This document shows positions 11,488-25,505 of a stretch of 39,623 bases of DNA, piece after piece (position 1 is the stretch's first letter; each line of letters begins with the position of its first letter). The position numbers were made by a program, and so were the translations under genes. The notes below the pieces were generated by a model. That model searched no databases. It was not told the origin of the DNA and saw nothing but the letters and a program-made list of their open reading frames with translations. The stretch is from Pirellulales bacterium (GTDB lineage: Bacteria > Planctomycetota > Planctomycetia > Pirellulales > JAICIG01), in NCBI GenBank assembly GCA_035533075.1, contig DATLUO010000144.1, forward strand, positions 1 through 39,623. The letters are read 5' to 3'.

Positions 11488-12810
11488 ATGCGAAATGTGT
11501 GGATGATGGTCGCGGTGCTCTCGCTGACCTGCCCCGCGAGTGCGGCGGAGGGCGACGCGCGCGGCGATTTGCGGCCGCAGATCGAGCGGCTGTTGACTTT
11601 GGCGAGCGAAGTCTCGGCCAAGCACATGCAGGAGACGGAACATTACTATCGCTCGTTGCGCGCCGCCAGTCGCAGCGATTGGCTGCTGCGGTATGCCTAC
11701 GCAGTCGCGCTGATTCAGCAAAAGCGACTGCACGAGGCGGCAAAGCTGATCCAGGAGCTGGGCGAGGAACACCCCGATGATTTTGCGGTTTGGCGGGGCA
11801 AGATCTGGCTGGCCCTGACGTTGGGCGAACGGTCGCGAGCATTGACCGAAATCGAGCAGCTTGCCAGCCACGCGGCGGCCCATCAAGCGGCTGAGGCGGA
11901 ACGACTGTCCGAGGTGGAGATCGCCGGGTTCTTTGGGTCGGTCTGCGGGTTCCTGTCGGGACCATGGTCGCAAAAGGTGCCTGCGGCCGACGCGGAGCAG
12001 ATCGAGAAACGTTTGCGGGCGGCCTTCGACGACAAGTCGCGGTCGGCGTTCGACCGGGCGAAGGCCGGGGTGATCGATCGTTTTGACGCCCTCCGCGCGG
12101 CATACGAGGAGAAAGAAGAGAAAGAGCTTCAGACGAACTCGCAGCAGCTCGAGGCCGAAAAGCAGTCGGTAGGCCGCGCCGCTCAGGAATTGGGCGACAA
12201 GCAGCAGTCGATCAAAGACAAAGAAACGAAGCGGGCCGAAGATGCCAAGGCGAAAGTGGCCGACATCGACGAGCAACTGAAGAAGGTCGGCCAGCAACGG
12301 GACGCGCTGCTGCAACAAATTGCGCCGCTCGAAGCCCAGCGGGTGGCGCTAGTGGCGCAGCTTATGCCCGAAGGGCTGTTTCTCCCCACGCGCAACCTCC
12401 ACCTCCACGCTTGGCAAAAGGTGGCCGCACGCCAATTCGCTGCATTGCACAATCGCCAAATCCGGATTTTGCTCGCGCCCCTCGTGACGAAGCTGACGTC
12501 GCTGGAAGGGCAAGTCACGTCGTTGAACCTGCAGGAACAAGAACTGTTCGCGGCCCGCGGGACGACGCAGATCAAGTATCAAGCCGACGTTGGCAAGCTG
12601 GTGGAAAAAGAGAAGTCCTTGCAAAAAGACGCCAAACGCTTGGCCTACGACGCCAAGCGGCTCAAGTCGAAGTCGGCCGCCAGCAGTCCGCGCCTGCGGG
12701 CCGAAATGGCGCATTTGACGCGATTCAGCACCTACGTGCCGTTTCCTTTCGAGCGTGAGAAAGCTCGGCTGCTCAAGGAAGCAAAGCCGCCGGCGACAGA
12801 TAACCCATGA
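11488..12810 (+). CDS. Secreted TPR and coiled-coil protein, first gene of the envelope operon
   Basis: A 440-residue protein with a signal peptide (MRNVWMMVAVLSLTCPASAA, cut about residue 20). Residues about 60-140 have TPR-like helix pairs (YAYAVALIQQKRLHEAAKLI). Residues about 205-270 and 340-400 are charged coiled coils (LEAEKQSVGRAAQELGDKQQ). No catalytic motif is seen. Coupled with the next gene by a 15-base gap, it probably acts in the periplasm as a structural or adaptor component of the machine encoded downstream. GGAG stands 8 bases before the ATG. No close family is recognised. Confidence 0.8.
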   Translation: MRNVWMMVAVLSLTCPASAAEGDARGDLRPQIERLLTLASEVSAKHMQETEHYYRSLRAASRSDWLLRYAYAVALIQQKRLHEAAKLIQELGEEHPDDFAVWRGKIWLALTLGERSRALTEIEQLASHAAAHQAAEAERLSEVEIAGFFGSVCGFLSGPWSQKVPAADAEQIEKRLRAAFDDKSRSAFDRAKAGVIDRFDALRAAYEEKEEKELQTNSQQLEAEKQSVGRAAQELGDKQQSIKDKETKRAEDAKAKVADIDEQLKKVGQQRDALLQQIAPLEAQRVALVAQLMPEGLFLPTRNLHLHAWQKVAARQFAALHNRQIRILLAPLVTKLTSLEGQVTSLNLQEQELFAARGTTQIKYQADVGKLVEKEKSLQKDAKRLAYDAKRLKSKSAASSPRLRAEMAHLTRFSTYVPFPFEREKARLLKEAKPPATDNP

Positions 12811-12825
12811 CACAAGGATCCCGTT

Positions 12826-14628
12826 ATGACTTTCCGGAAACCCTGGCAAGCCCCACGTTGTTCTCTGGCACTCTTGAGCCTGCCAATCGCCGTGATTTCG
12901 GGGGCGTTCTGGCTGCTCGTGGTTCCCGCGTCGGCGGCCATCAAGCCGAATCCGCACGCCGCGGCGGCGGTGCAAAAGACGCTGGCGGCGGAACCGAAAG
13001 GCGGTGCCGCCTCACGCGATCAGCAACTCGCCAAGGTCATCGAGTCGGCGCCCGATTATTCGCCGGCGCGATGGGCGGCGGGCTATGTCGAGCAGGACGG
13101 AAAGTGGATGAAATTCGATTCCCTGCCCGAAGGCGACGCGAAGAACGAAAAGGTCGTCGAGTATCGGCGGCTGCGCGACCAGGCTCCCGATACCGCCGAA
13201 GGTCAGTTGAAGCTGGCGAACTGGTGCCGTCAGCACAGCCTGAAAGAGCAGGAACGCGCCCATTTGCTGCGTGTTTTGGATTTTGAACCCAACCGAACGG
13301 ACCTGCGAGAGCGGCTGGGCATGGTCCACGTCGGCGGCGTGTGGATGCTGCCTCGCGAGGCCCGCCAGGCTGCCGCGCGGGGCAAGCAGGCGGTCGCCGA
13401 TCTGAAGCACTGGCTGCCGAAGGTCGAGAAGTTCCGCGCGGCGCTCGAGGGTCCGGCCGGCCGAGTGCGCGACCTGGCCATGGAACACGTCAGGGCCATC
13501 CGCGATCCATCGGCCATTGTGGCGTTGGAGACCGTCTTGGCCCCGTCGAGCGACGACGCCGGGGCGGCGGTGGCCGACGCGTTGGCCGCCATGAAACGGC
13601 CCGAAGCCTCGATTGCCTTGGCGCGCCTGGCCGCGTTCAGCGAGTCGTCGGACACCACCGACGCCGCCCGTGCGAAGCTGAAGACGCTGCCCAGGGACCA
13701 TTTTGTGCCGGCCATGTTGGCATCGCTGGTGGTGCCAGGCGCGACGCAAACGACCATCACCTCCGACCGCTACGGCCGGTTGTTATTCCAGCAGGCCTTC
13801 GCCTATGAAGGCGCCGACCGCAAACAGGTCGCGGTCTTCGACAACGTCTATCGCATCTATTCGGCCTACGGCCGTAGACGCCGAGCGGGAAGCGATGGTG
13901 TTTTAGCCGCCAGCGCCTTGGGTAGTGCGGAAACTGCCGGGCGATCGATCGCCGCCGACGCTCAGAACCGCCGGATCGAACGCACCAACGCTCGCATCAT
14001 CGACACCTTGCGCGACGTGACCGGCCAGACGCTCTCGGCCGATCCACACGCCTGGTGGCAATGGTGGAACGACGTCAACGAAATCGTGCCCGTGGGCGAT
14101 AAGCAGACGGATGTGACGTATGTCGTTGAGGAAAGGGCGCTGCCCAGTTTCGAAACTAGGGCTAGGCCGCACTGTTCCTGTTTGATCGCCGGCACGCCGA
14201 TTTGGACCGACCGGGGACTGGTGGCGGTCGACAAGATGCAGGTCGGCGACCGGGTACTGGCTCAGGATCCGGCTTCCGGAGAGCTGTGCTACAAGCCGGT
14301 GCTGCGCACGACCGTGCGGCCGCGCGCCCCGCTGATCCATATTACGCTGCCCGACGAGACGATCGTGGCCAGCGGCGGCCACCCTTTCTGGGTCGCCGGG
14401 CAAGGCTGGGTGAATGCCAGCCATTTGCAGCCCGAGATGCTGATCCATACGGTCACCGGCGCGGTGCCGATCGAGAAAGTCGAGCTGGAAGAGAATGGCA
14501 AACAGCCGGTCTTTAATCTCGTCGTGGAAGACTTTCACAATTATTTCGCCGGCAAATCGCACCTGCTGTTGCACGACATCACGCCGCGCGAGCCGACGCT
14601 GGGCCCGGTGCCGGGCTGGCAGGAGTAA
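12826..14628 (+). CDS. Secreted HEAT/TPR-like protein with C-terminal Hint domain
   Basis: A 600-residue protein. Residues 1-38 form a signal peptide or anchor. Residues about 110-175 hold helix pairs (LKLANWCRQHSLKEQERAHL, then VLDFEPNRTDLRERLG) and about 200-300 HEAT-like repeats. The last 150 residues form a Hint (Hedgehog/intein) domain: nucleophile Cys452 in CLIAGTPIWTDRGL, VGDRVLAQDP, the block B His519 in VASGGHPFWV, and the end block VVEDFHNYFAGKSHLLLHD at 583-584. Canonical inteins and pretoxin Hint domains end His-Asn; here it is His583-Asp584, and only 16 residues follow, so no toxin or extein of useful size is attached. Hint domains catalyse N-S acyl shift at the Cys, giving cleavage or transfer to a nucleophile. 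The likely result here is release or modification of the N-terminal part outside the cytoplasm. AGGA precedes the ATG by 7 bases. Confidence 0.88.
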   Translation: MTFRKPWQAPRCSLALLSLPIAVISGAFWLLVVPASAAIKPNPHAAAAVQKTLAAEPKGGAASRDQQLAKVIESAPDYSPARWAAGYVEQDGKWMKFDSLPEGDAKNEKVVEYRRLRDQAPDTAEGQLKLANWCRQHSLKEQERAHLLRVLDFEPNRTDLRERLGMVHVGGVWMLPREARQAAARGKQAVADLKHWLPKVEKFRAALEGPAGRVRDLAMEHVRAIRDPSAIVALETVLAPSSDDAGAAVADALAAMKRPEASIALARLAAFSESSDTTDAARAKLKTLPRDHFVPAMLASLVVPGATQTTITSDRYGRLLFQQAFAYEGADRKQVAVFDNVYRIYSAYGRRRRAGSDGVLAASALGSAETAGRSIAADAQNRRIERTNARIIDTLRDVTGQTLSADPHAWWQWWNDVNEIVPVGDKQTDVTYVVEERALPSFETRARPHCSCLIAGTPIWTDRGLVAVDKMQVGDRVLAQDPASGELCYKPVLRTTVRPRAPLIHITLPDETIVASGGHPFWVAGQGWVNASHLQPEMLIHTVTGAVPIEKVELEENGKQPVFNLVVEDFHNYFAGKSHLLLHDITPREPTLGPVPGWQE

Positions 14629-14722: not shown

Positions 14723-16579
14723 TTGAACCATTTCGATTCTTATGCACAGTGGTTGGGAATCCCCGCCGACCGGCGGCCGCCCAACCACTACGAATTGCTT
14801 GGACTGAGCAGCGGCGAAACCGATGCGGCCCGCATTCACACGGCCGGGCTGGAGCGCAGCGCCAAGGTGCGCCGCTATTGCCTCGGCAAGCACGGGGCCG
14901 AAGCGACGCGGCTGTTGGGAGAAATCGCCACGGCCTTTGACTGCCTCTCCGACACGGCGGCGAAAGCCGCTTACGACCAAAAGCTGTTTGGCCACGAAGT
15001 CGGCGAGGCTGCACACGACTTGCCGCCCGTGCGGCACGATCTGTCAGGTAGGGCGGGACCAGCGAGCTTGCGAGCGCCGGCCCACCAATCCGAGGGCCAT
15101 GGCGGGCCGGCGCTCGCAAGCTCGCTGGTCCCACCCTACGCGCACCGTCTGCCGCCGCGCTCGTTTGCCTGGCTCAGGCGGCGTCGCGCGGCCGCATCGT
15201 CCGGCCCGGCCCGCTTCACCTTTGCCACAGTCTTCTTGTTGGCAGCGACCTATGGGGTGGTCTGGTCGGCGCGCCATAACCCCGCCAGGCATACACATCC
15301 GGCGTCGTCTGCCGCGCAAGTACGGCCGCCGGCCGCACCGATTGAAAAGCCGGCTGGCGCCCGGCCGGTGGAGCGCGCCGAGATTGCTTCGGCATCCAAG
15401 TTTTCCGACGACCGCGCGCCCGGATCCGTCGCCCCGCCAACGGTCGTTGCAACAGCGGTCGTCGACCGCTCGGAGACGAAGCCCGATGACGGCCAGCTGG
15501 CCGATGGCCCGGTGGAACCAACGTCAGGCGATGCCCAGCTCAAAGCAGCGGCAACGGACAGCGGCCGTGCGGTGGCGAAGGCAGCGGCCAGGACGGCGAA
15601 TTTGCCGGCTCAACCGAACGAGGCGCCGGCGAGCGACGCGCCGTCGCCACCGGCGGCTGCAGTCTCAGCAGCCACGAAGGACGCCTTGCCACCATCCGCC
15701 GCCGCGCCTCAGCCGGGCCTCCGGCAAAAAGCAGATGCCCCGCCTTTCAGCGTCGTCCAAGTCACGGGCACGGAGGACATGGAGTTCGAAGATCCTCAGG
15801 CCGATTTTGGCAAGGCCTGGCGCTCGGCAACACGCGGCGTGCCGGAGGTGCTCGAACTAACGTTTGCGCAACCGGTGAGTGCGCTCTACCTGCGGGTCTT
15901 CGAAACGCCCTTGTTTGCCAAGGTCCAAAAAGTCGTTCTCTACCCTGACGCCGGCCCGCCCATCGTCATCAAGCCGGTGCAGCTTTCGTTTGACGCGGAG
16001 AATCATGTACGAACTTGGAGCCTGGGCGAAGTCCGGCCGCCGAGCAGGAGAGCGGCTATCACGTTCCATCCGACGACCGAAGGCTTTGTCGAGGTTGACG
16101 CCGTGGCGTTGCTCGATCGCCAACAGCAGCCGTATTATCCCGTCGGGGCGCGGGCCACGAGCAGTGCCGTGGCGGACGACCCCGACGTGGTCGACGAGCG
16201 CGGGCCGTCGGTCGCCGATCGAATCGAGGCGGCGAATGCCCCGCCCGCCCAGGGAGACGACGTTCTCGACAAAGCCGATGAGGTGGCGGCACAAGTGCAG
16301 CTCGATAAAGCCAGAAGCACGCATATCATCAATGATTACGTGCTCATTCTCAAGCACTATCCGGAAACGCAATCGGCCGTAGCCGCGGTGCGCGACTTGG
16401 CGCAGATGCGTCAGGCGCTTTGGCGCACCGGCAAGTGGCGCGTGATCATGGACGCCTTCGATCGCTTGGGGCAACACTCCCCTGATTCGGACGCGGCAAA
16501 GCTGGTGCCGCAAGCGTTGAGGGAGGCTGATTTGCCATCGAGCAGACCAACGCGCGCTCGGGCACCTGGGCGGCGCTAA
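14723..16579 (+). CDS. J-domain-like, transmembrane protein with C-terminal beta domain
   Basis: A 618-residue protein starting with TTG at 14723; no nearby in-frame ATG fits the conserved start. Residues 1-85 match the planctomycete J-domain-like module (YAQWLGIPADRRPPNHYELLGL ... ATAFDCLSDTAAKAAYDQKL); the HPD tripeptide of true DnaJ is not visible, so DnaK stimulation is doubtful. A linker encoded by a palindromic repeat follows (residues about 108-140), then a membrane segment near 170-190 (FTFATVFLLAATYGVVW), a long Ala/Pro/Thr-rich region and a domain at about 345-470 with beta strands (VLELTFAQPVSALYLRVFE) resembling a discoidin-like sandwich. It thus spans the membrane from cytoplasm to periplasm. 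It lies 94 bases after the Hint gene and 24 before the next. Confidence 0.82.
   Translation: MNHFDSYAQWLGIPADRRPPNHYELLGLSSGETDAARIHTAGLERSAKVRRYCLGKHGAEATRLLGEIATAFDCLSDTAAKAAYDQKLFGHEVGEAAHDLPPVRHDLSGRAGPASLRAPAHQSEGHGGPALASSLVPPYAHRLPPRSFAWLRRRRAAASSGPARFTFATVFLLAATYGVVWSARHNPARHTHPASSAAQVRPPAAPIEKPAGARPVERAEIASASKFSDDRAPGSVAPPTVVATAVVDRSETKPDDGQLADGPVEPTSGDAQLKAAATDSGRAVAKAAARTANLPAQPNEAPASDAPSPPAAAVSAATKDALPPSAAAPQPGLRQKADAPPFSVVQVTGTEDMEFEDPQADFGKAWRSATRGVPEVLELTFAQPVSALYLRVFETPLFAKVQKVVLYPDAGPPIVIKPVQLSFDAENHVRTWSLGEVRPPSRRAAITFHPTTEGFVEVDAVALLDRQQQPYYPVGARATSSAVADDPDVVDERGPSVADRIEAANAPPAQGDDVLDKADEVAAQVQLDKARSTHIINDYVLILKHYPETQSAVAAVRDLAQMRQALWRTGKWRVIMDAFDRLGQHSPDSDAAKLVPQALREADLPSSRPTRARAPGRR
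15048..15139. repeat. Inverted repeat within the J-domain-like gene
   Basis: Arms 15048-15086 and 15101-15139 are near-perfect reverse complements (GAGCTTGCGAGCGCCGGCCC and GGGCCGGCGCTCGCAAGCTC) around a 14-base loop. The gene reads through it as GRAGPASLRAPAHQSEGHGG and ALASSLVPPY. A half copy is at 9719-9756. Confidence 0.9.
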
Positions 16580-16603: not shown

Positions 16604-18328
16604 ATGCGGCGGAAACCGACCCGATTGATTCACCTGGCCTCGTTGGCGGGCGCGCTGGCGCTGGCCGGCTTGCTCGGCGCTACGCCGGCCGGCGCGCACG
16701 GCTGGCACAACGCCGCGCTCACCACCTCGTCGCTCGAAGAATGGTTGGGCGACGTGCAACGGGCAATTCCCGACATCTTGAAGCGGGCCACCGAAACCGA
16801 GCTGCACGCCGGACGCGGACTGGAAGACCTGAAGAAACAACGGCCTGGCAGGGGACAGGCCAGGCCCGCTGCGCCCGCCCCGCAGCGGGGCCGGCAGATC
16901 ATCTCGCAGTTGACACCTCAGCAACAAGAGTTGTTGGGCCGCAAGGCCGAAGACGCCCTGGAGGCGCTGGCCTTCATGGATCCGGCCAATATCTTTCCGG
17001 AAGAGTTTCCGCGGTTCGATCTGAGCAAGGTCTCCCAGTATCGCGAGACGGCGGTGAAGCTGTTGAGGTTGATGGGCCCCGTCGGCACGCGGGCCGTCAT
17101 TTCAGAGCTGCGGGCCGAGCTGATGGGCATGGGCCGCTCGCAAAAGGCGACCGATTATCGCGTCAACCCGGCCCGTTACGGTGCCTTGCTGGCTCTCCTC
17201 TATGAAGGCGTGTCGGTGGGTGAAGCCGATGCCGAAGACGTGAACAGCCTGCACATCGCGACAAAAGGAGCGAAGCCGCCACCGCTGGACGCCCTGGCCC
17301 GGCTGGTCGAAGAAACCTTGACGGCCGCCGAGGCGAGCCGCGACACCCTGCCGAAGCTGGCTGACCGGCTGATCGCCCCCGGCGATGCGCGGCTCAAGGA
17401 GCTATTGCTGGCGGCGCTCGAAAAACGGCTGCCGGAGGCGACCATCGACGAGCTTGCCGAGCTGATGCAGCATGTGGAAGGCTCGGTGCGTCAAAAGGCC
17501 ACGCTCGCCCTGAGCAAGCGGGCCGACGAATTCAGCGTCGCGCAGCTCATCGATCTCGAATCGAAGTTGCTGAATAAGAATGTGCAAATCAAGCGGACTT
17601 TCTATGAGATCTTTCGCATGCTCATGCCGAAGGCCACGGGCGAGGAGCTGCTGGCGCTGGCCAAGCAGGATGACTTGGCCGTGAGAGCGTTGGCCCAAGG
17701 CTTTCTGGCCAAGAGCATTCATTCGCAGAGCGTCGCCGGCCTGCTGGACATGCAGCAGTTGTTTGCGGGCGATCCGCTGGCGCGGACGATTGCCGCCGAG
17801 CTCACGAAACGCAGCCCCAAATACGCCGACGTCAAAGACCAGCTTGAACAAATCATCGCGTTCCTCGGCTCGACCGACGCCGAAACGGCACGGGCGGCCG
17901 AGCGGCAGGCGGCCAACGCCTTTCAGCGCGCGCCGATTCGTGAATGCTTGCGCTGGTTGGCGACCGACGACGACCGTTTGCAAAAGCTGATCTGGAAGCA
18001 GATCGACGGCCGGATTGCCCGTGCCGATGCGCAACGCGAAAGCGGCTACCGGCAGGTGGCGTTCGAGGAGCTGGCCGACGATGACGTCGAGCGCGGCAGC
18101 CGCCTGGCGGCCATCGAGTTGATCGAGCGCCTCGCGGACCCCGCGTCGGCCGGCCTGTTGGTCGACGTGCTGCCGAAGCTGCCGCGCGAGCTTTGGCCGC
18201 GGAGCGGCGAGGCCCTGCGCAAGTTGACGCGGCAAGATTTTGGACCGCGCCCCGGCGACGGGGCCGCCGAGCTGAACGCGGCCTTGGAGAAGTGGCGGGC
18301 TTGGCTGAGCGCACGGAGCAAGCAATGA
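16604..18328 (+). CDS. Secreted HEAT-repeat-like protein
   Basis: A 574-residue protein with a signal peptide (about residues 1-32, ending ATPAGAHG). The rest is almost all helical with repeating pairs of about 35-40 residues (for example ELAELMQHVEGSVRQKATLA and LLDMQQLFAGDPLARTIAAE), as in HEAT/ARM solenoids. A Pro/Arg/Gly-rich patch at about 80-100 (QRPGRGQARPAAPAPQRGRQ) is coded by palindromic GC-rich DNA. No enzyme motif is seen. Such solenoids usually bind proteins; in this operon it could be a periplasmic scaffold around the ExbBD motor. GGAG lies 13 bases before the ATG. Confidence 0.82.
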   Translation: MRRKPTRLIHLASLAGALALAGLLGATPAGAHGWHNAALTTSSLEEWLGDVQRAIPDILKRATETELHAGRGLEDLKKQRPGRGQARPAAPAPQRGRQIISQLTPQQQELLGRKAEDALEALAFMDPANIFPEEFPRFDLSKVSQYRETAVKLLRLMGPVGTRAVISELRAELMGMGRSQKATDYRVNPARYGALLALLYEGVSVGEADAEDVNSLHIATKGAKPPPLDALARLVEETLTAAEASRDTLPKLADRLIAPGDARLKELLLAALEKRLPEATIDELAELMQHVEGSVRQKATLALSKRADEFSVAQLIDLESKLLNKNVQIKRTFYEIFRMLMPKATGEELLALAKQDDLAVRALAQGFLAKSIHSQSVAGLLDMQQLFAGDPLARTIAAELTKRSPKYADVKDQLEQIIAFLGSTDAETARAAERQAANAFQRAPIRECLRWLATDDDRLQKLIWKQIDGRIARADAQRESGYRQVAFEELADDDVERGSRLAAIELIERLADPASAGLLVDVLPKLPRELWPRSGEALRKLTRQDFGPRPGDGAAELNAALEKWRAWLSARSKQ

Positions 18329-18460: not shown

Positions 18461-19510
18461 ATGACCCCCACGCATTCCGCAACACCACCTCAGCAAGCCC
18501 CGGTCCCGACCGAGGCTAGCGAGCCCGAATCGCCGCGACCGCCTTCGGCCTGGCGACGGTTCTGGCACCGCTATTCGCCCAACGGCGAGTTTCCGCTATC
18601 GAGCTGCTCGTCGTTGGCGATTCACGTCTTGCTCGTGCTGTTGCTGCTTCTGATGGCCAAGGTGCTCCAGAAGCATGAGCGGGCGGCGCCGGGCGTCGAT
18701 GTGGTTGTGGTGGGCGACGGGCCTGAAGCGGCTGCTGGCTTGCAAGCGGGTGGACCGGGCGAGTCATCCGCCCTGGCCGAGACTTCGCCCACGGATTCGC
18801 CCCAGCCGGCCGACTTGGCCGAACTGCCGGCCGAGCAACTGCAAACGAACGTCGCGGCGTCTCCTTCGACGGCGTCGCTGGTGGCCGACGACGCGGTTTC
18901 ATCGGAAGTCTCGCAGGCGGCGCAGCGGGCAGCGCAATCGGCGGCAAGGGCACGGGAAGGTCTGGCAAGGGCAAAAGAGCGGCTGCGGAAGAACATGAGT
19001 CAGGGCGGCGGCGGCACGGCGGTCGGCGGGAGCGGCAACGCCGCCGCCGGCAATTCGCCGGGCGGAGGCGGTTCAGGCGCCACCGGCCGCGCTGCCCGGC
19101 CCGGCCGTTGGATCCTCCGCTTCCGCAGCGTTTCGGTCGAAGACCTGCTGGCCCAATACGCGGGGCTGGGCGCGGAGCTGGCATTTCCCACGCAAGGCGA
19201 CAAATTTCGCTTCTTTTACAACCTTACATCGCGGCCGCCGCTGTCGCGGATGCAGGGTCTGGAAAAGGAGACGCGGCTCTATTGGCAAGAAGCCAATCCA
19301 CAGTCGCTTACCGGGCTGACGCAATATCTGGGCTTGCCGCTGGTCTCTTACATGCTGGCGTTCCTGCCGCAAAACGTCGAAGACCGAATGGCCCGCATGG
19401 AAGAGGCCTATGCCGGCCTGAAGGAAGACCAGATCGCCAGCACGACCTTCGAAGTCGTCCGCCGCGGCGGCGGGTATGATGTGCAGGTCGTCGAGCAGAA
19501 ACCGAGGTAA
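18461..19510 (+). CDS. TonB-shaped anchored protein, unknown
   Basis: A 349-residue protein from the ATG at 18461; a longer frame from 18371 would translate the heptamer repeats and is rejected. A Pro-rich cytoplasmic N-terminus (residues 1-30) is followed by WRRFWHRYSPNGEFPLS, a membrane segment at about 48-66 (LAIHVLLVLLLLLMAKVL), a 140-residue Ala/Ser/Gly-rich linker, and a folded C-terminal domain from about 210 (RWILRFRSVSVEDLLAQYAG ... TTFEVVRRGGGYDVQVVEQ). This is the plan of TonB (anchor, long linker, periplasmic domain) and the gene sits directly before exbB, but the C-terminal domain is not a TonB domain I recognise. Its role as the energy-transmitting partner is inference. Confidence 0.78.
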   Translation: MTPTHSATPPQQAPVPTEASEPESPRPPSAWRRFWHRYSPNGEFPLSSCSSLAIHVLLVLLLLLMAKVLQKHERAAPGVDVVVVGDGPEAAAGLQAGGPGESSALAETSPTDSPQPADLAELPAEQLQTNVAASPSTASLVADDAVSSEVSQAAQRAAQSAARAREGLARAKERLRKNMSQGGGGTAVGGSGNAAAGNSPGGGGSGATGRAARPGRWILRFRSVSVEDLLAQYAGLGAELAFPTQGDKFRFFYNLTSRPPLSRMQGLEKETRLYWQEANPQSLTGLTQYLGLPLVSYMLAFLPQNVEDRMARMEEAYAGLKEDQIASTTFEVVRRGGGYDVQVVEQKPR

Positions 19511-19603: not shown

Positions 19604-20245
19604 ATGAGCATCTCGCACATCATTGAAGCGAACGGGCCGTTCTTCACGATCATCTTCACCGTCGTGAGCCTGGCCAGCATGACGGTCGTCTTCTGGCGCT
19701 GGTGGTTGAACTATCACGCCAAGACCGACCTGGCCGATTTTCTCGGCCGCCTCGAGCCGGTGCTGGAAAAGGAAGGCGTCGAGGGGGCGATTCGTCTCTG
19801 CGATGAAGAGCCGGGCATCCTGCCCAAGCTCTTCACCACCGCGCTGCAAACCGGGCCGGAGGGCAAGGTCGCCACGCGCAGCGCGTTGGCGAACCTGATC
19901 GAGCTGGAGATTCTGCCCGACTTGAACTTCCTGCTGCCGCTGATCCTGGTGCTGGCCAAGCTGTCGCCCATGCTGGGGCTGTTGGGAACGGTGTGGGGCA
20001 TGATCCTGGCGTTCGAGAAGATTGCCGGCGCCACGAAGGTCAACCCCAGCGACCTGTCGAACGACATCGGCATGGCCCTGTTCACCACGGCGGAGGGCCT
20101 GCTGATCGCCATTCCGCTGATCTTTGCCTACACCATGTTTCGCGAGCAGGTCAACCGTTTCGAGCTTGACTTGCAGCGCGGCGCTCAGGCGGCGATGAAT
20201 CTGGTGGCCAAGATGGGAAAAAAGTCCGTAGTCAGTGGTCCGTAG
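19604..20245 (+). CDS. ExbB/TolQ/MotA-family proton channel protein
   Basis: A 213-residue protein with three membrane segments: about 10-32, 103-130 and 150-172. The first matches PFFTIIFTVVSLASMTVVFW; the second and third hold the family core (LLPLILVLAKLSPMLGLLGTVWGMILAF and MALFTTAEGLLIAIPLIFAY), including the conserved Thr and small residues of the proton path. ExbB pentamers surround ExbD and use the proton gradient to move a periplasmic partner. AGGA lies 6 bases before the ATG. The last residues (SVVSGP) and the stop are within the heptamer array at 20224-20291. Confidence 0.93.
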   Translation: MSISHIIEANGPFFTIIFTVVSLASMTVVFWRWWLNYHAKTDLADFLGRLEPVLEKEGVEGAIRLCDEEPGILPKLFTTALQTGPEGKVATRSALANLIELEILPDLNFLLPLILVLAKLSPMLGLLGTVWGMILAFEKIAGATKVNPSDLSNDIGMALFTTAEGLLIAIPLIFAYTMFREQVNRFELDLQRGAQAAMNLVAKMGKKSVVSGP

Positions 20246-20291
20246 TCCGTTGCCACGGACCACGGACTACGGACCACCGACCACAAACAAC
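20224..20291. repeat. Inverted heptamer array between exbB and exbD
   Basis: Four 7-base units (GTCCGTA, GTCAGTG, GTCCGTA, GTCCGTT), a 5-base centre, then five complementary units (GGACCAC, GGACTAC, GGACCAC, CGACCAC, AAACAAC). The halves pair imperfectly to form a hairpin between the exbB stop and the exbD start codon. Confidence 0.88.
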
Positions 20292-20297
20292 GGACAA

Positions 20298-20981
20298 ATG
20301 GCAGACATACTGGATCTGAAAGTCGTCGCCCTGGGCCGCGTTTACCGCCGCGTTGGGCTGAGCAAGCTGGTGAGCTGGGCGATGGAAGGACGGATCGCCA
20401 CGGCCGATCTTGTTTGCGCGACGGGCAGCGACCGGTGGCGGTCGGTGCTCGATGTGCCGGAGTTGGCGGCCAGCTTGCCGCAAGGCGTGGCGCGTGCCGG
20501 CGCTGCGGCGGAGGAAGAGGACGCCGAGTTCGACGTCGACCAGGCGAGCCAATGGGTGGCCCAGCGGCCGCGGCGTCGCCCGGAAGAGGCCGAGATGGAC
20601 ATGACGCCGATGATCGACGTCACCTTTCAACTCTTGATTTTTTTCATGCTCACCAATCACCTGGCCAATCCGGCGCCGACGCTCCTGCCCGAAGCCGTTC
20701 ACGGTCGGGGCGTCGACGCGGAAGGGCGGCAGGCGATCGTCATCGACGAGCACGGCGACTATTATCTGGGCGACACGATCAAGCCCGAAGCGAAGGCCAC
20801 GTCGCTCGACGCGCTCGTCGACGAAGTGCGGCTCAACGCCCGAGCCGCCGGGCAGCCGCTCGACGTGATCGTCAGCGCGCACCGGAGCGTGAAGTACGTC
20901 CGCCTTCGCGAGCTCGTCGAGCGGTTGGGAACGGTTTCGAACTTGGGGAAGATATTGATAGGAGTAGAAGAGAAACAATGA
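20298..20981 (+). CDS. ExbD/TolR-family protein with N-terminal GYF-like domain (first copy)
   Basis: A 227-residue protein from the ATG at 20298. Residues about 5-62 form a small domain like GYF_2 (SKLVSWAMEGRIATADLVCA, then DRWRSVLDVPEL), not found in standard ExbD. An acidic linker leads to the ExbD membrane segment at residues 100-120, starting MDMTPMIDVTFQLLIFFM, with the essential Asp107. The periplasmic part (VIVIDEHGDYYLGDTIKPEA type strands, then a helix and VIVSAHRSVKYVRL) has the normal ExbD fold. Total length is about 80 residues more than ExbD because of the N-terminal addition. It works with ExbB as the proton-driven stator/rotor. Confidence 0.92.
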   Translation: MADILDLKVVALGRVYRRVGLSKLVSWAMEGRIATADLVCATGSDRWRSVLDVPELAASLPQGVARAGAAAEEEDAEFDVDQASQWVAQRPRRRPEEAEMDMTPMIDVTFQLLIFFMLTNHLANPAPTLLPEAVHGRGVDAEGRQAIVIDEHGDYYLGDTIKPEAKATSLDALVDEVRLNARAAGQPLDVIVSAHRSVKYVRLRELVERLGTVSNLGKILIGVEEKQ

Positions 20982-21020
20982 GCAGCCGTAAGGTCGGAAC
21001 AGTCCGGCACGCCGGCACAA

Positions 21021-21179
21021 GCGGTGGCCGGGGCAGAGCTTGGCCGGGCGGGGCTGGATTTGCCAACACGCCCTGCGGCCAAGCGATGCCCCGGTAACAG
21101 CACCACCGGGGCATCGCTGGCCGACGGCGTTTTGGGGACTGCACGACCCCGACCCGGCCAGCTTCTGCCCCAGCCACCC
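21021..21179. repeat. Nested-hairpin element, second full copy, inside the operon
   Basis: Left arm GGTGGCCGGGGCAGAGCTTG and right arm GCTTCTGCCCCAGCCACC frame the inner hairpin GATGCCCCGGT / ACCGGGGCATC, as at 11037-11266, but the outermost arms are missing. It fills most of the 233-base gap between the two exbD genes. Confidence 0.85.
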
Positions 21180-21211
21180 CCCTGAACCCTGAACCCTGAA
21201 CCCTGAACCCT
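21180..21211. repeat. Heptamer repeat (CCCTGAA)x4 before the second exbD
   Basis: Four perfect units directly follow the nested-hairpin element and end 4 bases before the ATG of the second exbD, where the ribosome-binding site would normally be. Confidence 0.92.
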
Positions 21212-21214
21212 CTC

Positions 21215-21907
21215 ATGTGGCGCGTTCGCACCGAAGACGATTCCGGCCCGGGCCGCCAGGTCCGCTTCGAGCGGCTGGCGCGGGGCATCGAAGACGGAGT
21301 CTGGAGCGAGACCGACCAGGCCCGCGGCCCCAACGACGCCGATTGGCGGCTGATCGGCGAGCACCCCGAGCTGGAAGAACATCTTCCGCCCGCGCCGCCC
21401 TTCAAAGCGGGCGAACGTGACGAAGCCGAGATGGACATGACGCCGATGATCGACGTCACGTTCCAGTTGCTGATTTTTTTCATGATCGCGGCCACCTACG
21501 TCGTGCAAAAAACGCTGGAGCTGTCGGCGGCCCAGGCCGAAGAGGCGCCGGCCGCGGTCACCCTGTCGCAATTGGCCCAGGACAACATCATCGTCAAGGT
21601 GGCCCGCGACCGGTCGGTATCGGTCGACGGCGTCCCGGCCGCGATCGACGGCCTGACCGACGCGCTCCGCCAGGCCGCCCGGCGGCGCAAACGGGCCACC
21701 GCCGAGCTGGTGCTCGACGTGGACGATGAGGTCGACCATGAAACCGTGGTCAAAGCGATCGACGCCGCGGCGGGCGCGGAAATTGAGAAGGTTCATTTCG
21801 TCTCGCGTGGCCGCTCCACGCCTGGTCCGCGATCGCCGGGCAAATCGACCGCGCCCGGCGAAGAGCCGCCGCTCGACTTGCCCGGCGGCCTGTCACCCAC
21901 AAAATGA
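21215..21907 (+). CDS. ExbD/TolR-family protein with N-terminal GYF-like domain (second copy)
   Basis: A 230-residue protein. Residues 1-55 (MWRVRTEDDSGPGRQVRFER ... WRLIGEHPELEEHLPP) form a GYF_2-like module. The membrane segment begins at residue 73 with the same MDMTPMIDVTFQLLIFFM as the first copy, with Asp80 as the proton-carrying residue. The periplasmic part ends in a Pro/Gly-rich tail. Two different ExbD proteins with one ExbB suggest a mixed ExbD dimer in the channel, as known ExbBD and TolQR complexes hold two ExbD chains. The start codon follows heptamer DNA with no normal Shine-Dalgarno. The gene ends 4 bases before the next. Confidence 0.92.
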   Translation: MWRVRTEDDSGPGRQVRFERLARGIEDGVWSETDQARGPNDADWRLIGEHPELEEHLPPAPPFKAGERDEAEMDMTPMIDVTFQLLIFFMIAATYVVQKTLELSAAQAEEAPAAVTLSQLAQDNIIVKVARDRSVSVDGVPAAIDGLTDALRQAARRRKRATAELVLDVDDEVDHETVVKAIDAAAGAEIEKVHFVSRGRSTPGPRSPGKSTAPGEEPPLDLPGGLSPTK

Positions 21908-21911
21908 TTGC

Positions 21912-24900
21912 ATGGCACCACGTCCGGCCGACTCCGAATTGATCGACGTCGCATGTCCCGCATGCGGGGAAGTGTACCATTTGCGGCCCGATTCGGTCGG
22001 CAAGTACCTGGAGTGCTTCAACAAGCTCTGCCGGCGACGGTTCAAGATCGAGCCGATCGTCGCCGGGGCGGAGGCCGTCGAAGCCAGTAGTCTGGAAGTG
22101 CTGAACGCGGCGCCGGTTGAGATGGAACAGCCGGTCGAGAGCGTGAAGGCAACCGCGGTGAATGCCGAGGCGGCTGACGAGGTGCCGCCGGTGCAGATCC
22201 CGCCAGCCAAGCTTGCCGCGTCGCCGGCGGCGATCAAAGCACCGAGCTTGCTTCCGGCGCCCGTCTCTACGGCCGTGGCGCCGAATTCCTCGTCGATTTC
22301 TTCCAGGCCCGCGGACGTGCCTCAGGCGGAGCAGCCCGATGCGGCTCCGTCGGCGGCGCCGCCGCACCCGCGGTCGCGGCGCCGCGGTCCGCCGAGGTGG
22401 GCGGTGAGGCTGGCGGTGATCGGTGCTGCGGCGCTGGGGGTGCTGGCAAGCTACGTCGGCGTCTTGCAGTTTCAAGAATGGTCGAAAAGTCCCGAAGAGG
22501 AATGGAAAAAAGCCCAGGCCCTTTATCAGGACCATAAATGGGACCATGCCCGAGCGGCGCTGGCCAAGTATGTCGAGCGGTTTCCTCAGGCGCCGCAGGC
22601 GGCGACCGTGCCGTTCTTTCTCGATATGTGCGATGCGGGCAATGAGGTCTTCTCTCCGACCGGTGACTTGACGCGCGGCATGGCGGCGCTCGATCGGCTG
22701 TTTCGCTCGCACCGCGACAGCCCGGCCTACCACGATTATGCCGGCGACCTTTTCCAGGCGCTGGGCCGGCTGATCGAGCGATCGGTCGAGCGGGCCAGGC
22801 AACTGAGCGAACTGGCAGAACTGCAGCGGGCGAAAAAGGCCGCCGGCGATCTCGATCGGGCGCGCCAGGCCCACGAGTTGTTGCGCACGGTCGCCGAAGC
22901 GATGAAGGATGCGTGGGTGCCCGAACGCGTGCAAAAGCTGGGCGAAAGCGTCGACGAAACAGCCCGAAGCGTGAAGCTGAATCTGACGCGCATTGAGATC
23001 GTCGCGAATTTTCGCCGCGTGCCCGGCTTCCCGCTCGAAGGCGACCTGGGGAGCGTTTATGCGCGCATCGAAGCGTTGCTGCACGACGAACCGGAGTTGG
23101 CCGACGACCCGCGGATTCTCAAGGAACAGTCTTTGGCGCATCGCTCTGAGTCGGCCCGCGTGCGTTATCGGCCGTTGCCCGCCGACGATGCGGAAGCGGC
23201 TGCCGTCGGCGAGACGGCCGCGGGACAGACCTTGGCCATCGTCTGGCAGCCGAGCGACGACGGCGGGCCGGCCGCCCCGGCCGACGACGCCTCGGCGGTC
23301 GTCGTGACTCTGGCACAAGGCGTATTATATGCGTTCGATGCCGCCGGCCGGCCGCGTTGGGCGCGACGCCTGGGACTCGACGTCGATTGTTTGCCGGTGC
23401 GGATGCCCGCCAGCGCCACGTCGGGCGAAGTGCTCATCGTGCGGTCGAGCGCCGAACAGTCCGTTTTGGCGCTCGACGCAACGACCGGCGCCGAACGTTG
23501 GCGTTTCGCGGCGCCGGCGGCCATGACCGCACCGCTGACGCTCGTCACCATTGCCGACCAAGGCGGCGGCAAGCCGCTCCTGCGCGGACTGCTGCCGACC
23601 GCCGACGGACGCATTCACGTGCTCGAACCGGTGCTCGGCAAGCGGCTCGGCTATTACGAGGTCGGCTGGCCGCTGACGGTCGGCGGCGCCTACGATCCCG
23701 TCACGCGGCGGATCTATTTCGCGGCCGACTTCGATCGCGTGCTGGCGATCGACCCGGCGGCCATCGACAACGGCAAACAAGCGGCCTGCTCGTCGGTCTT
23801 GTTCGCCAGACACGCCAGCGGTTCGCTGCGCAGCGGGCCGCTGGTCGTCGGACCGTATCTGGTGTTGATCGAAGCTTCCGATCTCGACCGGACGCGGCTC
23901 CGCGCCTATTTGCTTTCGGAATCCGGCTTCGCCGATGCCGACGCCTCGCCGTTGGCCGAGCAGACGGTGTCGGGGTGGTCGTGGTTTGCTCCGCAAGCCT
24001 CGCCCGACCGCTTGATGTTCGCCACCGACCAGGGCGAGCTGGGCTTGTTCGGCCTGAATCTCGACAACCAGTCGGAAGCCATCTATCGGCTGATCGAAGA
24101 CACGGCGCAGCCGCCCAGCACACTTTTGTCCGGCGCCAGCGGCACACGGACGTTGCTGGCGCATGCCGAAAACCAGTCGCTCTGGGTGCAGGCCGGGCGG
24201 GCGCTGCGCCGGCTGTCGCTCAACATGCTTCAGCAGAGGGTCGATACGGTCTGGACGGGCGAAGAAACGCCGACCCACGTCGCGGAGATACCCCTGCACG
24301 AACCACAATCGAGGCGCGTCGATCGGCGCCTGCTGCTTTACTTGGGCACCATGAGCGGCGACGCCAATCGCTGCGAGCTGGCGGCGCAGGAAGCCGAGAC
24401 GGGCACGGCGCTGTGGCGCCGCCAGGTCGGCTTGCATCCGGCGTGCGACCCGCTGCTGGAAAATGGCCGCGTGACAGTGGCCGACCGTGGCGGACGGATT
24501 GCCACCTTCGACCTCGACCGTCCGCCGTCGGGCAAAACGACGCTCGTCGAGCCGGCCGACCACGAGACGTTGCCGGCCGGCGCCGGCGGGCCGCTCATGA
24601 TCGAGGCCGACGACGGTCGTCCGCGGCTGTTTGCGAGAACGGCCGATTCGAGCGCCGTCGCCGTCCGGCCGCTTGATCCGCAAGCGGCCTGGCAGGTGCT
24701 TCAGCCGCCGGCCGAAGTGCTCGGCCGCCCCTGCCTGTTGGCCGGCGCGCTGGCCGCGGTTTGCTCCGACGGCTTGCTCCATCGCATCGCGGCCGGCGGC
24801 GCCGCGGCCGATGTCAACGATCAGCCCTTTGTGTGGTCGATCGCAGCGCAGCCGTCGGGCACCGCGATCAGCGTCACGCCCGCCGGACACGAAACCGTGC

Positions 24901-25505
24901 TCGTCTGCGACGGCCGGGTCTTGCGGCGGCTGCAATACCAGGCGCGCGGTTCCGTTGGGCAATGGCTCGAGATCGGCGAGAGCTATGCGGCGGAAGGGAT
25001 GCTGACCGGCCGGCCGCTCGTCTACGGCGAGCACATTTTTATCGCCGGCGTTTCGGGCACGGTAGAAGTACACGATGCCTACGACCCGGCGCACGTGGTC
25101 CACCGCTGGTCGCTGGCCGGAAGGCCGACGAGCGAGTTGTTCGTTCGAGCGGGACGCGTGCTCGTGGTCATCGACCAGAGCGTGATCGTCTCGCTGACGG
25201 CGGCGGCCGACGAATTGGCTGACGGGCCGAACTGGGCGAGCGAGCGTCGTCCGGGCGCGATCTGCGGTCAGCCGCCAGCCCACGGTGACACGTTGATCGT
25301 CACCGACGCCAGCGGCACGATTTGTGGATTGAACATGGACGACGGCAAAACCGTCTGGCAAACCCGACTCGCCGAAGGCCAGGCCCCGGCCGCGGCCGCC
25401 GTGGCGTCGGCCGAGGGGTTCTTGCTCGTACCGCTGGTCGACGGCACGCTGGCCGTGGTGCCGCTACCGTCACCCGGTACACAACTGACGGAGGCGGCGG
25501 AATGA
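21912..25505 (+). CDS. Zinc ribbon, transmembrane, TPR and PQQ-type beta-propeller protein
   Basis: An 1197-residue protein from the ATG at 21912. A cytoplasmic zinc ribbon (Cys15, Cys18, Cys35, Cys40) is followed by an Ala/Pro-rich linker, a membrane segment at about 164-186 (AVRLAVIGAAALGVLASYVG), TPR-like helices to about 410 and then a large repeat region with PQQ/Trp-docking strands such as LYAFDAAGRPRWARRLG, VLALDATTGAERWRFAAPA and ICGLNMDDGKTVWQTRLAEG, the form of quinoprotein-like propellers without visible PQQ ligands. The propeller would lie in the periplasm. Its stop overlaps the next start by 4 bases (ATGA), so translation is coupled. It may be the main periplasmic docking body of the complex; that is inference. 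Confidence 0.87.
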   Translation: MAPRPADSELIDVACPACGEVYHLRPDSVGKYLECFNKLCRRRFKIEPIVAGAEAVEASSLEVLNAAPVEMEQPVESVKATAVNAEAADEVPPVQIPPAKLAASPAAIKAPSLLPAPVSTAVAPNSSSISSRPADVPQAEQPDAAPSAAPPHPRSRRRGPPRWAVRLAVIGAAALGVLASYVGVLQFQEWSKSPEEEWKKAQALYQDHKWDHARAALAKYVERFPQAPQAATVPFFLDMCDAGNEVFSPTGDLTRGMAALDRLFRSHRDSPAYHDYAGDLFQALGRLIERSVERARQLSELAELQRAKKAAGDLDRARQAHELLRTVAEAMKDAWVPERVQKLGESVDETARSVKLNLTRIEIVANFRRVPGFPLEGDLGSVYARIEALLHDEPELADDPRILKEQSLAHRSESARVRYRPLPADDAEAAAVGETAAGQTLAIVWQPSDDGGPAAPADDASAVVVTLAQGVLYAFDAAGRPRWARRLGLDVDCLPVRMPASATSGEVLIVRSSAEQSVLALDATTGAERWRFAAPAAMTAPLTLVTIADQGGGKPLLRGLLPTADGRIHVLEPVLGKRLGYYEVGWPLTVGGAYDPVTRRIYFAADFDRVLAIDPAAIDNGKQAACSSVLFARHASGSLRSGPLVVGPYLVLIEASDLDRTRLRAYLLSESGFADADASPLAEQTVSGWSWFAPQASPDRLMFATDQGELGLFGLNLDNQSEAIYRLIEDTAQPPSTLLSGASGTRTLLAHAENQSLWVQAGRALRRLSLNMLQQRVDTVWTGEETPTHVAEIPLHEPQSRRVDRRLLLYLGTMSGDANRCELAAQEAETGTALWRRQVGLHPACDPLLENGRVTVADRGGRIATFDLDRPPSGKTTLVEPADHETLPAGAGGPLMIEADDGRPRLFARTADSSAVAVRPLDPQAAWQVLQPPAEVLGRPCLLAGALAAVCSDGLLHRIAAGGAAADVNDQPFVWSIAAQPSGTAISVTPAGHETVLVCDGRVLRRLQYQARGSVGQWLEIGESYAAEGMLTGRPLVYGEHIFIAGVSGTVEVHDAYDPAHVVHRWSLAGRPTSELFVRAGRVLVVIDQSVIVSLTAAADELADGPNWASERRPGAICGQPPAHGDTLIVTDASGTICGLNMDDGKTVWQTRLAEGQAPAAAAVASAEGFLLVPLVDGTLAVVPLPSPGTQLTEAAE

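Follow-up and report, generated by a model that had tools for sequence, protein, structure and literature searches.

A locus in a planctomycete genome raises the question of why two tandem exbD genes should be almost identical over the DNA that encodes their proton-carrying helix, and of what kind of machine their products would form. It lies in a 39,623-nucleotide stretch of Pirellulales bacterium DNA (assembly GCA_035533075.1, contig DATLUO010000144.1, positions 1 to 39,623 of the forward strand; the whole stretch is hereafter called the window), in which an ExbB-like gene is followed by two ExbD genes (exbD1 and exbD2). An earlier sequence-only reading had explained the shared DNA by strong constraint or gene conversion, and had proposed an ExbD heterodimer with cytoplasmic sensing domains inside one ExbB ring. 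The unusual part of the locus is the adapter domains fused to its ExbD proteins, not the near-identical DNA. The locus probably specifies a Ton/Tol-like proton-driven motor with two old ExbDs that bear GYF adapters and with a TonB/TolA-like transducer, for which no gene conversion is needed and in which the adapters would gate a heterodimer. The genes and elements concerned are as follows.

18461-19510, + strand: putative TonB/TolA-like force transducer (single membrane helix, low-complexity linker, C-terminal alpha/beta domain of about 140 aa)
19604-20245, + strand: ExbB/TolQ-like ring subunit (Pfam MotA_ExbB, 7.1e-23)
20298-20981, + strand: ExbD1, the first ExbD, 227 aa (Pfam ExbD, 5.3e-15; first-ExbD side of the tree described below)
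20298-20486, + strand: predicted cytoplasmic module of ExbD1, GYF-like (window protein: GYF_2, E 0.0042; two orthologues over the cut-off)
20586-20648, + strand: proton-helix motif of ExbD1 (codon table; seven-T run at 20638-20644)
21215-21907, + strand: ExbD2, the second ExbD, 230 aa (Pfam ExbD, 1.7e-25; second-ExbD side of the tree)
21215-21388, + strand: predicted cytoplasmic module of ExbD2, GYF-like (matches the ExbD1 module by profile; model compared with solved GYF domains)
21422-21484, + strand: proton-helix motif of ExbD2 (codon table; seven-T run at 21474-21480)

GYF-type modules on both ExbD proteins

Both window ExbDs scored over the Pfam cut-off for ExbD/TolR (PF02472), the Asp was invariant in the alignment, and the periplasmic part of the ExbD2 model had an ExbD-type fold (8p9r, Z 11.5). 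None of the NCBIfam equivalog cut-offs for ExbD, TolR, ExbB and TolQ was reached, the best ExbD/TolR scores being 40.2 and 47.2 against 127.3 bits. Eight ExbD matches were found in the 8.5 Mb, 296-contig genome from which the window comes, corresponding to the window pair, two further pairs and two singles.

The proposal that a GYF-like module is fused to both ExbDs was borne out by Pfam matches of orthologues, by homology between the two modules and by the ExbD2 model. The window ExbD1 matched GYF_2 (PF14237) with 17.3 bits, under the cut-off of 25.8 (E 0.0042), and the window ExbD2 gave no match at E≤1, the best score among ExbD2 relatives being 15.5 bits. Ten of the 13 family members matched GYF_2 at E≤1, and the cut-off was passed by two of five ExbD1 orthologues, those of genomes G078 and G377 (38.2 and 35.9 bits; E 1.2e-9 and 6.5e-9). 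The ExbD1 and ExbD2 modules matched each other when compared profile to profile (97.2%, E 4.1e-11), and 20 of the 21 GYF-like modules retain a Trp. Residues 1-58 of the ExbD2 model had a predicted local distance difference test (pLDDT) score of about 94, and five of 50 structural matches covered this N-terminal part: GIGYF1 (Z 6.3, 54 aligned residues, root-mean-square deviation 2.1), GIGYF2 (Z 6.1, 56 residues, 3.0), the GYF domain of GltJ (7z3c; Z 6.0, 68 residues, 3.1) and two chloroplast TOC-TIC chains (Z 7.4 and 6.5). The Z values for the GYF domains are modest because the domain is small. By title, the best 50 Foldseek matches of the ExbD2 model included no GYF entry; the GYF matches arose only with VIA-align 2.

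Against solved sequences, the sole match of the ExbD1 module profile at E≤1 was GltJ GYF (7z3c, E 0.095), and the ExbD2 module profile gave just weak unrelated matches. With a pooled profile of the 21 modules, a Zbm-binding protein (E 0.056) ranked above GltJ GYF (0.77), so that GltJ GYF is linked weakly by sequence, the main grounds being the ExbD1 profile match and the fold. Taken together, profiles and model support an N-terminal cytoplasmic GYF-type adapter on each ExbD, with the ExbD2 module appearing to resemble GYF by fold and profile only.

To our knowledge, ExbD of the Escherichia coli type has no cytoplasmic GYF module, and to that extent the statement that ordinary ExbD lacks one stood; it did not hold for planctomycetes, in which zinc ribbons and GYF modules recur on ExbD. 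Among the best matches from 294 genomes of the phylum, at least seven genomes besides the window's own had a protein that matched the GYF-ExbD profile over nearly the full length (G502, G421, G466, G439, G484, G460 and G446, among the matches listed). When six of these distant proteins were scanned with GYF_2 (L173 lay outside the scan), one passed the cut-off (L172), L205 and L208 were weak, and none was detected in L204, L206 or the second ExbD of L207.

In addition, the second ExbD of related tandem pairs often has a zinc ribbon in place of GYF, which is new. A CxxC-CxxC zinc ribbon preceded the helix in 29 of 222 distinct ExbD cores (98 first, 95 second, 26 single and 3 middle), and all 29 were second copies, compared with none of the 127 first, single or middle ExbDs. 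These counts describe a pattern and not a census, because the loci were fetched with the window proteins and neighbours in the tree are not independent. Out of 177,635 solved sequences, the ExbD zinc-ribbon profile matched the GltJ zinc ribbon best (7zok, E 3.7e-6); LysW (3.7e-5) came next, ahead of further zinc ribbons. Since zinc ribbons are common, the GltJ match is suggestive only.

In the literature we found no paper that combines ExbD with a GYF domain, and no publication describing adapter domains on ExbD, as far as titles and the opening of abstracts tell.

Orthologous loci and the age of the pair

A match to ExbD1 at E≤1e-15 was present in seven genomes besides its own among the 396 genomes of the order. 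ExbB and both ExbD genes were found in all seven orthologous loci (in G184, ExbD1 is split across two contigs), and the synteny of the operon was kept. Relatives with a single exbD, which the sequence-only reading had named as a sign against itself, occurred among distant genomes but not at the orthologous loci.

A tree was built from 120 ExbD cores and 143 columns, with many forks unresolved; it omitted the first ExbD of L207 (masked bases), L201 and L202 (the upstream frame looked wrong) and loci L084-L141. Six of the seven GYF ExbD1s formed a clade with 99% support in the Shimodaira-Hasegawa-like approximate likelihood ratio test, on the same side as the first ExbDs from other tandem pairs (support for this join was just 79), while the ExbD1 of G044, a long branch, strayed from it. 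All GYF ExbD2s fell on the opposite side of the tree. This separation argues for two old lineages and, judged by the tree, ExbD1 and ExbD2 are old, distinct paralogues.

The near-identical helix-coding stretch

Positions 20586-20648 and 21422-21484 (offset 836) agree at 56 of 63 bases and encode 21 identical residues, which include the ExbD proton-helix motif EAEMDMTPMIDVTFQLLIFFM; we take DMTPMIDVTFQLLIFFM to be the signature of this helix. The near-identity over some 60 bases is therefore real, the earlier coordinates (20588-20648 and 21423-21483) being one base out of register. A run of seven T was seen in the codons ATT TTT TTC of each gene, as described before, and the remainder of the genes has diverged, the two ExbD proteins being 24% identical. 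According to the codon table, 11 of the 17 non-Met codons of the stretch are identical and 6 are synonymous, five of the latter being consecutive.

The strong constraint suggested for the proton-carrying helix was evident, since the motif is kept in all relatives with the Asp and its neighbours unchanged: the residues D, T, M, I, D, F, L, I, F and F were invariant in 13 aligned family members. The window pair was second among 41 tandem pairs of ExbDs in motif DNA identity, the median being 79%. Identity of the stretch is far beyond chance because the protein motif is conserved; an unusual likeness at silent sites, beyond what this motif and the codon habits give, was not borne out.

Within six genomes, ExbD1 and ExbD2 agreed silently at 58 of 89 comparable codons of the motif (0.652), and ExbD1 agreed with the ExbD2 of other genomes at 253 of 407 (0.622). 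Between genomes, the agreement was 113/198 for ExbD1 with ExbD1 and 131/216 for ExbD2 with ExbD2. The comparison of G377 with G184, which are near-copies, was dropped from the between-genome counts, and G073 and G044, whose motifs have diverged (2/12 and 5/10 within the genome), from the pooled totals. Codon usage alone would give about 0.45-0.47, and the agreement exceeded this value both inside genomes and from one genome to another, a sign of codon habits held in common at the motif. Permuting the pairing of ExbD1 with ExbD2 gave P=0.165 (720 permutations). Outside the motif, silent agreement within five genomes was 70/132, compared with 244/520 for paralogues between genomes; therefore, if there is a slight silent excess, it is not confined to the stretch, and the comparison inside and outside it that the sequence-only reading had proposed revealed no excess particular to it. 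These data suggest that protein constraint and shared codon habits account for the likeness of the 63 bases, and do not support gene conversion, which is not needed.

The seven-T run was considered as evidence of conversion and rejected. ATT and TTT make up 0.23 and 0.39 of the codons of their own amino acids, which gives a second copy about a 9% chance of having it, and the run is not evidence because it was picked after the fact. Of 143 motifs with identical residues, 7 had ATT TTT TTC, and among the 14 other motifs from the orthologous loci none did.

The transducer and a possible docking partner

In the protein encoded at 18461-19510, the membrane helix contains an S-x3-H element whose residues, S51 and H55, were invariant in an alignment of eight sequences from seven genomes. 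A Ser/His motor-binding motif is given for TolA and TonB in the excerpted text of PMC12204202, and S-x3-H fits this motif, consistent with a TonB/TolA-like transducer. The C-terminal part was modelled with a pLDDT of about 90, and this domain had no Foldseek match at E≤0.001 and a best structural Z of 2.9, the higher-ranking matches aligning to the long helix. No TonB/TolA C-terminal domain was matched in NCBIfam at E≤0.01 or among the structural matches listed. A von Willebrand factor A (vWA) domain was likewise absent from Pfam matches at E≤1 and from the structural matches listed, the fold itself being possible. In G028, two tandem transducer copies precede exbB (L075:10549-11448 and 12577-13545).

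The gene that follows exbD2 encodes a receptor-like protein.

21912-25505, + strand: protein with zinc ribbon, Pro-rich linker, membrane helix, TPR-like region and PQQ beta-propeller (Pfam PQQ_2, 1.8e-20)

Its linker and membrane helix were recognized by eye and its propeller by Pfam. At the corresponding gene or its immediate neighbour, Pkinase was matched in G010 (2.5e-44, with kinase and propeller in two frames), G028 (4.2e-22), G078 (2.3e-42) and G184 (1.1e-40), and in G044 a kinase domain was seen by motif only; the sequence of G377 ends too early for this comparison. GYF domains bind proline-rich peptides, of which PPG is the core. Linker stretches containing PP occur in several relatives, with PPG in G010, G044 and G184. 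We infer that the leading candidate for a partner of the adapters is this protein, a receptor-like kinase in most relatives. As for an MglA-like partner, the genome had one Arf-family match, within a 909-aa frame. The second ExbD of G460 is followed by a gene (L207:6280-10188) for a 1302-aa PQQ-propeller protein whose start looks FHA-like by eye; its Pfam matches were mainly to the propeller, with none to FHA.

Comparison with known motors

Ton (ExbB-ExbD-TonB) and Tol (TolQ-TolR-TolA) share with the locus the protein families, the conserved Asp, the S-x3-H of the transducer and the ExbD-type periplasmic domain, and differ from it in that the locus has two ExbDs, cytoplasmic N-terminal domains, an unfamiliar C-terminal domain on the transducer and a PQQ or kinase neighbour. 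As far as we know, Ton/Tol motors are usually thought to have no cytoplasmic control domains on ExbD or TolR. An axle subunit with its own adapter, whether zinc ribbon or GYF, would offer a direct handle on recruitment or gating of the motor.

The Myxococcus xanthus machine AglRQS resembles the locus in its tandem arrangement of one ExbB-like gene and two ExbD-like ones (here at 19604-21907) and, together with GltJ/AgmX, in having cytoplasmic zinc-ribbon and GYF modules, which are carried there by GltJ. The modules of GltJ reportedly regulate gliding through MglA. Compared on motor genes and modules only, the two differ in that the modules sit on a TonB-like protein there and are fused to ExbD here; the window ExbDs themselves have no zinc ribbon, a module found instead in other ExbD pairs of planctomycetes and in the receptor-like protein encoded downstream. 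The composition of AglRQS, one ExbB-like and two ExbD-like subunits, is described in the excerpted PMC3169522. Pairs of tolR-like genes and vWA force transducers of the Planctomycetes-Verrucomicrobia-Chlamydiae group have been published (PMC12204202, in excerpt), and the portion of that text at hand makes no mention of adapter domains on tolR-like proteins. Four distant loci resemble those motors in that a single GYF-ExbD adjoins a vWA protein (G421, G439, G502 and G466), whereas the window transducer gave no vWA match in Pfam at E≤1.

Mechanism and alternative explanations

In the motor that we propose, the ExbB ring, ExbD1 and ExbD2 would be driven by protons, with the S-x3-H transducer as output; ExbD1 and ExbD2 would pair as a heterodimer within one ring, and the cytoplasmic GYF adapters would bind a partner that recruits or gates the motor. 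The heterodimer is plausible because both genes are present at every orthologous locus, the lineages are old and zinc ribbons occur only on second copies. More broadly, and tentatively, planctomycetes may possess signal-gated motors in which adapters of the GltJ kind on one or both ExbDs dock a neighbouring receptor (kinase plus PQQ, or kinase-less) and switch an asymmetric axle from the cytoplasm. Several observations weigh against our proposal. The GYF scores of the window proteins are weak by themselves; the Ser/Thr kinase present in five relatives is absent from the window and from G073, and the Pro-rich linker of the window protein is without PPG. Six of the seven distant GYF-ExbD genomes showed one ExbD in the fetched DNA (which for L208 stops 0.4 kb past its GYF-ExbD gene), with a pair in G460, so that a motor with GYF modules need not contain a heterodimer. 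Finally, silent identity within genomes slightly exceeded that between them (0.652 vs 0.622), and both exbD genes of the window have ATT TTT TTC, one of the less frequent variants, which leaves room for a tiny recent conversion tract.

The two helix stretches might be kept alike by gene conversion or by a local exchange of very recent date, and the case for this draws on that shared run, on 11 identical codons out of 17 informative ones in the window where 7.75 are expected (P 0.085), and on the within-genome identical codons of G010 (P 0.002) and G028 (P 0.035). We regard it as highly improbable, since ExbD1-ExbD2 pairs from different genomes agree as well as those from one, five consecutive codons within the stretch all differ silently, and neither the permutation nor the separate lineages of the tree point to exchange. 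Moreover, the motif DNA of the window ExbD2 is as near to the ExbD1 of G028, a member of another family of the same order, as to its own ExbD1 (0.90 and 0.89 identical, respectively).

Two further alternatives concern what the pair and its modules do. An ExbD1 homodimer and an ExbD2 homodimer could share one ExbB as two motors with differing transducers or states, and, as the loci with a single GYF-ExbD suggest, one type of ExbD can be enough; in AglQ/AglS, likewise, whether hetero- or homodimers form is not yet known according to the excerpted PMC9389320. Retention of both copies at all the orthologous loci argues against separate homodimers, and the restriction of zinc ribbons to second copies (29/29) fits one of each per motor; we regard two homodimeric motors as rather doubtful. 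Pairs with a zinc ribbon on one ExbD only would provide a clean test of the heterodimer question that the same excerpt raises for AglQ/AglS. It is more doubtful still that the two kinds of module, GYF-like and zinc-ribbon, serve only as passive anchors or as tags for stability, without a part in signalling: they diverge fast and differ between families, and the window's own score is under the cut-off, but the Trp is conserved and GltJ, a gliding protein, carries solved counterparts of each kind.

Neighbouring genes and repeats

Upstream of the motor lies one further gene that is kept in relatives.

16604-18328, + strand: HEAT-repeat-like protein (Pfam HEAT_2, E 0.0067, under the cut-off; kept 5' of the motor in relatives)

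By tblastn, it was matched at the equivalent place in L074, L142 and L077. The gene at 14723-16579 has a J-domain-like start (DnaJ, E 0.14, under the cut-off), with short matches to this start near the motor in L142 and L075, and the 600-aa product of 12826-14628, 5' of the operon, contains a pretoxin HINT domain (Pfam PT-HINT, 1.1e-20) and matches HEAT weakly.

Just 5' of exbD2, at 21180-21211, there is a perfect array of 4.6 copies of the heptamer CCCTGAA. The 25-base pattern CCCTGAACCCTGAACCCTGAACCCT is a genome-wide repeat, with 325 matches in the genome (182 forward and 143 reverse, overlaps counted), compared with 0 when read backwards. The gap between exbB and exbD1 (20223-20295) holds a heptamer-based inverted repeat with 23-nt arms that are 91% complementary and 11 nt apart, a 20-base piece of which was found at one other genomic place (C45).
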